This document shows positions 119 through 3,404 of a DNA stretch of 64,000 bases, one piece after another; position 1 is the first letter of the stretch, and every line of letters starts with the position of its first letter. The notes under the pieces were generated by a model. The model had not been told where the DNA came from, searched no databases, and worked only from the letters and a program-made list of their open reading frames with translations. A program made the position numbers and the translations under genes. This stretch comes from Herpetosiphon aurantiacus DSM 785. Lineage in GTDB: Bacteria; Chloroflexota; Chloroflexia; Chloroflexales; Herpetosiphonaceae. The stretch spans positions 3,859,199 through 3,923,198 of the forward strand of contig CP000875.1 of the NCBI GenBank assembly GCA_000018565.1, given 5' to 3'.

Positions 119-1966
119 ATGTCGTCTAGGTCGATTAATCGCCGGCTATTGGTGCTTCAAGCAGGCTGGACAGTTGCTCAGGCCCAGTTATTGCTCGCCC
201 ATAGCCAAGCCGAATATGTGGTTGTTCAACGCACTGAGCCACAAATCTACTGGTATGTCTACCCTCTCGAAGTTGTCCAAGAACGCTTAAGCTACCATCA
301 CCCTGATATTGCGATCTACCTGGCGCTCAATTTGCAAGAAACCTCAGCTAGTTCGACTCTCAACAGCAATCAACTCGAAACCGCCGACTATTTAAGCGTG
401 GTGCTTGATGATCAGCAACACTTGCAAGGCGTAGTTAATCCGAGTGCTCAAGCCAAAGGCACAGAATTTGATCCATTCTTCAAGGCCTATCCCTCAGTAG
501 TTGCCCAAAACCAAGCCCAACTTAACCAAGCCTTTGATCTAGCGGTTGGCTTTCGCGATACGCCTGATGCTGGCTTAATCGGTGGCCATAACCCGATTGT
601 CATTCATGGCTTGCAAACTGATGAACGTTGCACAATTATGCTCAGCGGCGATGGCTTGCAGTTTGATCGAGAGCAAGCCGAATTGGCCTTTGACATTCAG
701 GCAACCGTATTTTTTAAGGCCACGCCAACCCGCACAGGTCGCTGTGTAATCTATGTCGATTATTATCGCCAACGCCAATTGGTGGGCCATGCCGAGCGGG
801 TTGTGCTGGTCGATAGCAACGCTGAACCAGAACCTAGCAATGCTAGCCCGTTTGATTTTGGCTCAACTCCGGTCGATTTACTGATCAACCTGCGCCGTGA
901 TGGCGATACGTTCAAATGGACGGCAATGCCGCATGATCAAGCCTTTACACCGGTGCACAATTTGCCGAGCCAACAAGCCTTATCCGAGCAGGCTGCCCAA
1001 AATTGTGCCGTTGATCTGTTGGGTGCGGCGGTTAATCCAAGTTTATTGTTGGCGCAACGCGAACTTGAAGCGCTTGCCAGCGATCTAGGCCAATTTGTCC
1101 CAAGCCCAATTTGGCAATTACACAGCGATTTGGCCCAGAAATTGCAGCGTCCACTCACGGTTTTGCTGCGCAGCAACGATTTGGCTTTGCCTTGGGAATT
1201 AGCGATGGTCGAAGCCCCTTTGCTAGCTGGCGATCAGCCGCTGTATTGGGCCGCCCAAACCCATTTTGCCCGTTGGTATATTCACCCCCAAGTTAGCCCA
1301 ATGCCACCCGATCAACTCAACATTAGCCAAATTAGCGCAATTGCCTCACGCTATGGCTGGGATTCAGGCCAAGCTGAATTGGTGCATGCAGTTGATGAGC
1401 AAACCATGCTGCAAAACCAATGGCAAGCCCAAGCCTACGAAGCCACGATTCAGGCGCTTGATCCATTGTTGAGCCAAGCCACGACCCAAGCTGGCCATCT
1501 TTTACACTTTGCCGTGCATGGCCGCAGCCAACCCAACGCCCGCATTCAAGAAATTATCTTGGCTGATAATAATGCGATTTCGGCCAAAGCCTTGGTGGGC
1601 AATACTCGCCGTCGCCCGCCCCAATTTAGCTTTGTGTTTATCAATGCCTGCCAAGTTGCGACCCCAGGCCAGAGCTTAGGCCAAGCGGCGGGCTTCCCCG
1701 CCGAAATTCTCAAAAGTGGTGCGGCGGGCTTTGTTGCACCATTGTGGGAAGCTGATGATCAAGCAGCCGGAACGTTTGCCGCTCAATTTTATAGCCAAGC
1801 GTTTCAAGCCCAACCGTTGGGCGCAATTTTGCAACAATATCGCCTAAGTTATGTGGCCAATAGCACCACCACCCGCCTTGCCTATATCTTTTATGGCCAT
1901 CCCGCCTTGCGTTTGGCCTATTCGAGCAAAGGAGCAACCCATGCCCAACAACCAAGTGCGGCTTGA
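119..1966 (+). CDS. CHAT-domain caspase-like protease
   Basis: 615 residues. The last third is a CHAT (caspase HetF associated with TPRs) domain, a clan CD cysteine peptidase fold. The probable catalytic histidine is H467 in HFAVHG and the cysteine is C511 in INACQ; the downstream GFPAEILKSGAAGFVAPLW stretch is typical of CHAT. The N-terminal 110 residues hold a segment (YLSVVLDDQQHLQGVVNP) that resembles a CBS-type strand-turn. Residues about 120-240 look like a beta-rich module. No TPR or membrane segment is seen. CHAT proteases act as switches that cut a partner protein, for example bacterial gasdermins or the TPR-CHAT of type III-E CRISPR. The gene overlaps the next one, an alpha/beta hydrolase, by 26 bases, so the two are co-translated. 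Function as an activator of the hydrolase is inference. The fold call is firm; the N-terminal description is weak. Confidence 0.85.
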   Translation: MSSRSINRRLLVLQAGWTVAQAQLLLAHSQAEYVVVQRTEPQIYWYVYPLEVVQERLSYHHPDIAIYLALNLQETSASSTLNSNQLETADYLSVVLDDQQHLQGVVNPSAQAKGTEFDPFFKAYPSVVAQNQAQLNQAFDLAVGFRDTPDAGLIGGHNPIVIHGLQTDERCTIMLSGDGLQFDREQAELAFDIQATVFFKATPTRTGRCVIYVDYYRQRQLVGHAERVVLVDSNAEPEPSNASPFDFGSTPVDLLINLRRDGDTFKWTAMPHDQAFTPVHNLPSQQALSEQAAQNCAVDLLGAAVNPSLLLAQRELEALASDLGQFVPSPIWQLHSDLAQKLQRPLTVLLRSNDLALPWELAMVEAPLLAGDQPLYWAAQTHFARWYIHPQVSPMPPDQLNISQISAIASRYGWDSGQAELVHAVDEQTMLQNQWQAQAYEATIQALDPLLSQATTQAGHLLHFAVHGRSQPNARIQEIILADNNAISAKALVGNTRRRPPQFSFVFINACQVATPGQSLGQAAGFPAEILKSGAAGFVAPLWEADDQAAGTFAAQFYSQAFQAQPLGAILQQYRLSYVANSTTTRLAYIFYGHPALRLAYSSKGATHAQQPSAA

Positions 1967-3404
1967 TGGCAGCAGCCAAGCCCATGAAGTTGCCCCAAAT
2001 TATCGGATTATTGCCCAAGGTATCACGGGCAATGCCGCCGTACCAAGCCAAGAGCCACGGCGCGGCGAGGCTGGCGCTGGCGTGATCAAAGGTTTGGATT
2101 TAGCATTAATCACTACCGAAAGTAAATTAGCTCAAACCTTCACCCTCGATCTTGAGAGCAGCCTGCCACCCCCACCCGGTGCAATGCGCGGCAGCAGCGA
2201 TTTTGTGCTCCAAACCCCCGATTTTGGCACTAATACCGCGCAAGCGGTGCTTTATACCGATCAAGCGACTGGCTATAGTCAATGGATTTTTCCTGAGCCA
2301 AGCCCAAATCCAGCGACGCAACGCCGAGGCGGAGCCAGCGTTACCTATCGCCTGCCCCGCGAACCAATCGTGCCACTCCCACCAGCACCAGGCGAAGATG
2401 CCCGCCGTGGCGGCGTGATCAAAGCGATTCGCAAGGTTGTACGGGTGATTGCTTGGAAAACCGATGAATTGATTGGCAACACGCTTGAGGCGATTATTAG
2501 CAAGTGGGAATCGGTCAAACGGGCTTATGGCTGGCAAAACTTACCGCTAAATGATACCAATCCGGTTGATTGGGCACGGATACAAACTGGCCGCAGTTTA
2601 TTATTAATTCATGGCACATTTAGCAGCGCAACCGGAGCATTTGCCGCCTTGCCCAACGAAACCATTGGGCGCTTGCAGCAAATCTATAATGGGCGCTTAT
2701 GCGCCTTCAATCACCCTTCGCTGAGCGTCTCGCCGCAAGCCAATATCGACGAATTACTCAAAACCATGCCAAATAACCTCGAAATCGATGTAGTTACCCA
2801 CAGTCGCGGCGGCTTGGTTGGGCGCGAATTGCTGAGTCGGGTACAGCAGGGGATTCCGTTGCGGGTGCGCAAAATGATCATGGTGGCTTGCCCCAACCGT
2901 GGCACGCCCTTGGCTGATGGTGAACATTGGCTCACCATGCTCGATCGTTATACCTCGCTGTTGGCCGATTTGCCCGATACTAGTGCCAGCGTGATTATGG
3001 AAGGCATTTTGACGGTTGTAAAATTAATTGGCCATGCTGGCTTGCGCAAATTACCAGGCCTCGCCGCGATGACTCCCAAAAACAGCTATTTACAACAACT
3101 CAATGCTGGTCAGCCTGGTCAAACCCAAGTTTATGCAATGGTCGCCGATTACCAACCCAACGACCCTAATTGGATCAAACGTTTTATGCGCCAACAGGGC
3201 AATAAATTGATCGACCATTTCTTTGGCGAGGCCAATGATGGAGTTGTGCCAACAGCGGGGGGCTATCAAGGCAACAGCGATGGCAGCGGCTGGTCAATCC
3301 CCAGCGAGCGCCGCATCCTATTTGATACCGACAAACGGATCAATCACAGCAGTTTCTTTGGCAATCAAGCGGTTAACCAGCAACTAGTCGAATGGCTTCG
3401 ATAA
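1941..3404 (+). CDS. alpha/beta hydrolase (lipase-like) partner of the CHAT protease
   Basis: 487 residues from the ATG at 1941, chosen because AAAGGAG lies just upstream; a longer reading from 1851 lacks such a site. Residues 1-200 are a beta-rich, proline-rich N-terminal region of unknown role. The rest is an alpha/beta hydrolase. IHGTF supplies the oxyanion hole, S288 sits in the nucleophile elbow HSRGG, D433 in NDGVVP and H469 in RINHSSF, giving a plausible Ser-Asp-His triad. The elbow is closest to lipases and GPI-inositol deacylase-like esterases. No signal peptide is visible, so it probably acts in the cytoplasm. The start lies inside the CHAT gene, which suggests tight coupling of the two products. 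The substrate is not known; a lipid or thioester is a guess. Confidence 0.82.
   Translation: MPNNQVRLDGSSQAHEVAPNYRIIAQGITGNAAVPSQEPRRGEAGAGVIKGLDLALITTESKLAQTFTLDLESSLPPPPGAMRGSSDFVLQTPDFGTNTAQAVLYTDQATGYSQWIFPEPSPNPATQRRGGASVTYRLPREPIVPLPPAPGEDARRGGVIKAIRKVVRVIAWKTDELIGNTLEAIISKWESVKRAYGWQNLPLNDTNPVDWARIQTGRSLLLIHGTFSSATGAFAALPNETIGRLQQIYNGRLCAFNHPSLSVSPQANIDELLKTMPNNLEIDVVTHSRGGLVGRELLSRVQQGIPLRVRKMIMVACPNRGTPLADGEHWLTMLDRYTSLLADLPDTSASVIMEGILTVVKLIGHAGLRKLPGLAAMTPKNSYLQQLNAGQPGQTQVYAMVADYQPNDPNWIKRFMRQQGNKLIDHFFGEANDGVVPTAGGYQGNSDGSGWSIPSERRILFDTDKRINHSSFFGNQAVNQQLVEWLR

Follow-up and report, generated by a model that had tools for sequence, protein, structure and literature searches.

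The window, as we call the whole stretch of 64,000 nucleotides that was analysed, carries two overlapping genes on the forward strand, on which all features described below also lie. The first gene, at positions 119-1966, encodes a CHAT protease of 615 aa (TCAD7, a beta domain and CHAT; called from the ORF, Pfam and the structural model), and the second, at 1941-3404, encodes a DUF7379 lipase-like hydrolase of 487 aa (called from the ORF, Pfam and a fold match). The first-pass annotation had described a CHAT protein with H467/C511, an alpha/beta hydrolase ending at 3404 with S288/D433/H469 and a 26-base overlap of their genes. All of this was borne out: the CHAT ORF is present and includes a Pfam CHAT domain, and with a hydrolase start at 1941, the three hydrolase residues fall as placed and the overlap spans 1941-1966. 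This start is most likely the correct one, rather than 1851, because a ribosome-binding site, AAAGGAG, is present at 1928-1934, the aligned hydrolase relatives open with the same MAxxxxLxG start, and in a close relative (genome G274) the ORF itself begins at the Met equivalent to that at 1941. The genome from which the window comes (6.79 Mb in three contigs) encodes 14 CHAT proteins, one of them with TCAD7, and a single full DUF7379 hydrolase; the sole TCAD7-CHAT protein and the sole full hydrolase adjoin each other.

The N-terminus of the CHAT protein, which the first-pass annotation had left unassigned, can now be assigned because residues 8-104 (positions 140-430) match Pfam TCAD7 (E=1.1e-14); this domain is likely the signal-receiving end of the protein. 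A beta-sandwich middle domain (residues 121-231; 479-811) was recognised in the model and from relatives, in two of which Pfam DUF7363 is called at the same place. The CHAT domain proper covers residues 337-601 (1127-1921) according to Pfam, the alignment and the fold, with the Pfam CHAT match (PF12770, clan CD) extending over residues 337-584 (E=2.2e-12, 47.5 bits versus a cut-off of 24). Its catalytic residues, H467 (1517-1519) and C511 (1649-1651), are invariant in an alignment of 13 CHAT partners. The AlphaFold model, for which alignments of relatives were supplied, had a pLDDT of 72, and the best Foldseek match was TPR-CHAT of Craspase (7zoq), followed by DdvA, separases (5fby, 7nj1) and SAVED-CHAT.

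The second protein matches Pfam DUF7379 at residues 220-388 (E=1.3e-48, 165.9 bits versus a cut-off of 33). Its model, obtained in the same way with a mean pLDDT of 84, consists of a beta-rich N-terminal region (residues 1-156; 1941-2408), which we take to be a putative cap, a long hydrophobic and cationic helix (residues 158-193; 2412-2519), which may act at the membrane, and an alpha/beta core of the lipase fold (residues 216-487; 2586-3401; supported by Pfam, the alignment and Foldseek). The model matched lipases of Burkholderia, Pseudomonas and Geobacillus, which are true bacterial lipases, with a Foldseek probability of 1.00, and the protein is predicted to be a lipase-like enzyme. The triad S288 (2802-2804), D433 (3237-3239) and H469 (3345-3347) is invariant across 30 aligned hydrolases. 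The catalytic residues of both proteins are thus kept in relatives, a point on which the first-pass annotation had made its reading depend.

The arrangement raises the question of whether the two genes are also neighbours in other genomes. Approximately 85,000 species genomes were scanned with a four-sequence hydrolase alignment, and adjacency was scored by HMMs built from Pfam-verified seeds. The scan yielded 70 relatives, which belong to Verrucomicrobiota, Pseudomonadota, Bacteroidota, Actinomycetota, Gemmatimonadota and other phyla. Forty-one of these hydrolases have an active-type CHAT or a C14 caspase as a fusion partner or neighbour: 27 form one chain with a CHAT domain, 12 are encoded immediately after a CHAT gene, one is followed by CHAT genes (including a TCAD7-CHAT), and one is a fusion with a C14 caspase. 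At a further 15 of the 70 loci, a pseudo-CHAT/transglutaminase-like peptidase is encoded directly upstream, while six loci are truncated at the end of a contig and eight lack a neighbouring peptidase. The first-pass annotation would have given up its reading had the genes not been neighbours elsewhere; the pairing of CHAT and hydrolase is kept across phyla.

The distances among the CHAT domains and among the hydrolase cores are correlated (r=0.77, Mantel p=2e-4, n=18), although the P values treat the sequences as independent and ignore their kinship. Together with this correlation, the finding that the nearest relatives of the window's pair belong to other phyla suggests that CHAT and hydrolase were transferred as a unit. 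Within the genus, the same pair occurs in two other genomes, with 97% hydrolase identity, and is absent from three of six genomes. The TCAD7 type is rare in Chloroflexota (5 of 400 genomes) and patchy even within the genus, and the TCAD7-CHAT proteins of two genomes (G216 and G128) have no adjacent hydrolase. Seven of the eight plasmid matches are fusions, lying within genes that carry a CHAT annotation, and no phage-borne copies were found in 50,697 phage records. Fusions of ~1770-1800 aa with DUF7379 and CHAT in one chain were observed at locus L055 (9023-14362) and at the plasmid loci L187-L189; the L055 protein also carries LCAT, a Peptidase_M17_N-like domain and TPR-S.

Alignment of the two-gene type revealed a T-R-(G/S/A) motif repeated at four places within the otherwise variable N-terminal part of the hydrolase. 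In the window's hydrolase (P0002), these places correspond to R41, R83, R129 and R156 and define four putative cut sites: A (R41-G42; 2061-2066), B (R83-G84; 2187-2192), C (R129-G130; 2325-2330) and D (R156-G157; 2406-2411), the last situated just before the core helix. R[GSAT] is present at these columns in 17, 16, 13 and 18 of 18 CHAT-linked relatives, respectively, and at every other N-terminal column in at most 5 of the 18. The places were defined on 14 loci; at four held-out loci, which came from a later separate genome search and each of which has an adjacent CHAT, the motif was found at 15 of 16 places versus a background of ~10%. Among the 68 sites, Thr occupies P2 in 31 and Gly occupies P1' in 48, with Arg at P1 in all by construction. 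Shuffling each N-terminal region alone showed weak enrichment of R[GSA] (93 seen versus 60 expected), and the signal lies in the positions of the motif and not in the composition of the region. In the model, the sites map to the loops of lowest confidence, namely, residues 39-46 (site A), 121-130 (site C, pLDDT 56) and 144-160 (site D) and, less strongly, 71-90; residues 34-165 as a whole are poorly conserved, with a median top-residue frequency of 0.39.

Arginines can be kept for salt bridges, and the Arg-Gly residues could accordingly be structural or binding motifs in a pair formed by a housekeeping lipid enzyme and a non-cutting CHAT regulator, with which the housekeeping character of the window's neighbours (see below) would agree. 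However, the same short motif occurs four times per chain, in low-confidence loops with poorly conserved surroundings; moreover, its copies change together from lineage to lineage, and it recurs in the linkers between hydrolase and CHAT, as described next, and we consider this explanation quite improbable.

Several groups of relatives provide natural controls for the correspondence between the sites and the partner protease. Two Yinghuangia proteins are nested in the CHAT-linked clade, have no CHAT within ~7 kb and carry the motif at 0 of 8 sites; at one of these two loci, a C14 caspase gene lies downstream. The CHAT-hydrolase fusions, with ~27% identity to the window's hydrolase, retain Arg-(Gly/Ser/Asp) at these places and have further copies of the motif in the linker that joins hydrolase and CHAT, as in Intrasporangium calvum with its three copies of (E/S)RDLPMAP, and a Ruegeria plasmid fusion that had been left out of training has 4 of 4 sites. 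Six Chloroflexaceae-type hydrolases without an adjacent CHAT (L109, L110, L113, L115, L118 and L052) keep the four places, at which mostly (V/T/A)-(L/F)-(G/S) is found, the motif being largely swapped as a set; one of the six reads R-G at three places. Repeated sites that change together would be expected from one protease with one specificity. A VLG motif matching the V-L-G hydrolases was not found in the CHAT proteins of two such genomes, and no protease corresponding to these hydrolases came to light. The putative Arg preference of the CHAT is read from the substrate side only. Self-processing of the window's CHAT protein at R-G sites was rejected, as its linkers have no such site; R-G sites are present in the CHAT linkers of some relatives (L069, L077).

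Another question is which peptidase would act on these sites, since active CHAT domains are not the only partners. At the loci L116, L119, L120, L122-L127 and L129-L134, a CHAT-like domain and a transglutaminase-like cysteine peptidase lie directly upstream of the DUF7379 hydrolase; the CHAT-like domain, which is joined to the peptidase or precedes it, has lost the catalytic His and Cys (as read by eye), and the hydrolases of these loci bear Arg-rich sites in their N-terminal part. The weak relatives from Bradyrhizobium and planctomycetes are likewise not solo hydrolases, their upstream genes being a pseudo-CHAT and a transglutaminase-like peptidase. C14 caspases adjoin many hydrolase-CHAT proteins or form one chain with them, and several actinobacteria have such a caspase downstream or as part of a fusion. 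At L066 (2-5110) and L068 (1241-5002), a TPR-CHAT gene immediately precedes those for TCAD7-CHAT and the hydrolase; because of these two arrangements, a protease cascade is plausible, with a possible CHAT-to-CHAT step at L066 and L068. The same arrangements, as well as a Humibacillus protein (L104) that combines the hydrolase with a C14 caspase, has no CHAT and keeps the Arg sites, are consistent with the Arg-Gly motifs being cut by another protease, either a C14 caspase or a general Arg protease, and with the CHAT being only an upstream switch of the cascade. Most two-gene loci, including that of the window, nevertheless have no adjoining C14 gene, and we regard this possibility as unlikely. 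As a separate observation, at L110 (95-7424) and L057 (1263-13410), DUF7379 is found beside a protein of ~740-780 aa without a clear Pfam match and an ATPase-like protein of ~1170 aa (GGTGLGKT), and a similar two-protein pair lies near a fusion of C14 caspase and DUF7379 in a genome of the window's genus.

The first-pass annotation had proposed that the CHAT protein cuts the hydrolase and frees it from its beta-rich N-terminus. This proposal has gained support at the level of sequence from the pairing across phyla, the four Arg-Gly sites in flexible N-terminal loops and the loss of the sites in two CHAT-less relatives, with the cleavage step still inferred. In the mechanism that we favour, the hydrolase would be made inactive or restrained by the beta-rich cap (residues 1-156), and a signal reaching the TCAD7/beta N-terminal region of the CHAT protease would cause the CHAT to act. 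The protease would then cleave on the C-terminal side of Arg at as many as four T-R↓G-like sites of the hydrolase (R41, R83, R129 and R156): cuts at A-C would break up the cap, while a cut at D alone would yield a product starting with Gly-Gly-Val-Ile-Lys, continuing with the hydrophobic cationic helix and then the lipase core. The helix of the released lipase may be able to reach membrane lipid, and the likely outcome would be damage to membrane lipid, arrested growth or death of the cell, which could serve defence. The hydrophobic helix is not in itself evidence of activation because it is also found in the Yinghuangia proteins. Cutting could, conversely, switch the hydrolase off or release a signal, in which case the pair would be real and the hydrolase processed, with the hydrolase being a constitutive esterase/deacylase or a scaffold and the CHAT an effector or a timer. 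Cutting an N-terminal domain at multiple sites would also fit destruction, but all four sites are N-terminal to the core and leave the conserved triad intact, and in the model, site D falls precisely at the border of cap and core helix; this possibility seems to us rather unlikely.

From the observed domain content, pairing, catalytic residues and four-site motif with its partner correlation, we infer a protease and pro-lipase pair in which the motif is cut after Arg, the CHAT is the protease that cuts it, removal of the cap activates the lipase, the substrate is membrane lipid, and the resulting damage is useful for defence; we give this reading slightly better than an even chance. A broader proposal, which is possible and which we put forward tentatively, is that DUF7379 proteins are widespread protease-activated pro-lipases matched to their partner peptidase (CHAT, C14 caspase, or pseudo-CHAT with a transglutaminase-like peptidase), that their four sites change as a set with the protease (from T-R↓G to V-L↓G), and that they may serve lipid-based suicide as a counterpart of gasdermins.

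As to the purpose of the pair, the first-pass annotation had suggested looking for clustering with defence genes, which does not hold for the window, where the pair's immediate neighbours are housekeeping genes (a Bmp/ABC transporter, TPMT, DUF1800, DUF1501 and a response regulator). A reading of the window as a defence island was dropped on account of the Bmp/ABC transporter, TPMT and DUF1800/DUF1501 neighbours. Searches of PADLOC-DB 2.0.0 gave no match for either protein at E<=0.1, and NCBIfam gave no match to a known defence system. At other loci, genes for a DNA methyltransferase and a recombinase flank or adjoin an Azotobacter plasmid fusion gene, and in a Gemmatimonadetes genome (L078, 8606-12700), an nSTAND1-WD40 (NLR-like) gene adjoins the CHAT-hydrolase pair. 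These neighbours, the likeness of the CHAT to immune CHATs, the wide and patchy spread and the plasmid copies are indirect support for a defence role; we consider it likeliest, at roughly even odds, that the pair serves defence or programmed cell death.

No CHAT-lipase system, DUF7379, DUF7379-CHAT pairing or four-site motif was found described in the open literature (subscription journals were mostly outside the scope of this search). Because the cut-like sites are conserved and the partnership recurs across many phyla, CHAT and lipase probably form an undescribed enzyme pair in which cutting switches the lipase on, with cell suicide or defence as a possible purpose. The pairing of a protease with a proenzyme is emerging as a common principle of bacterial immunity, as in pro-nucleases and gasdermins, and a lipase version distributed across phyla would, if true, add a third kind of effector. 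What the majority of bacterial CHAT proteins cut becomes a directly testable question here, as a predicted substrate and its exact bonds are named, and the coordinated change of the motif from one lineage to another might make it possible to deduce the specificity of a protease from sequence alone.

Among known systems, bacterial gasdermins also place a protease beside a membrane-attacking effector held inactive by a removable part; the partner in the window, in contrast, is an alpha/beta hydrolase with a lipase triad and not a pore-former, and its putative removable part is N-terminal. Separase, which cuts after Arg, has a CHAT-related fold (5fby and 7nj1 in Foldseek), but it is a eukaryotic cohesin protease without a lipase partner. 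In Craspase, TPR-CHAT (Csx29) acts with Cas7-11 as an RNA-guided CHAT protease whose target is a specific partner protein (PMC9729208, PMC10028731); the CHAT fold is shared, 7zoq being the top Foldseek match, whereas the Craspase substrate is not a lipase and no CRISPR component is present at the window's pair. According to Kaur et al. 2020, the caspase-superfamily domain in VMAP ternary conflict systems always occurs with a neighbouring alpha/beta-hydrolase gene (PMC7159879), and the window has this combination of a caspase-superfamily peptidase and a neighbouring alpha/beta hydrolase, although no MoxR, vWA or VMAP gene adjoins the pair. The name TCAD7 ("ternary complex associated domain") appears to come from this field. 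The nuclease-protease pairs and Canu (caspase-nuclease), reported in 2025, provide antiphage defence via a protease and a gated MBL-fold pro-nuclease (PMC12799240). Defence has been shown for these systems and is a putative role for the window's pair; their effector is an MBL-fold nuclease gated by active-site insertions, unlike DUF7379 with its N-terminal cap and four Arg-Gly sites. The design otherwise appears alike: adjacent genes encode a protease, of the caspase family in Canu, and an effector, in the window a putative proenzyme, with candidate sites in disordered or low-confidence segments, conserved glycines in the disordered insertions being the proposed cut sites in those systems, and the effector pairs with different protease types in different loci (PMC12799240).
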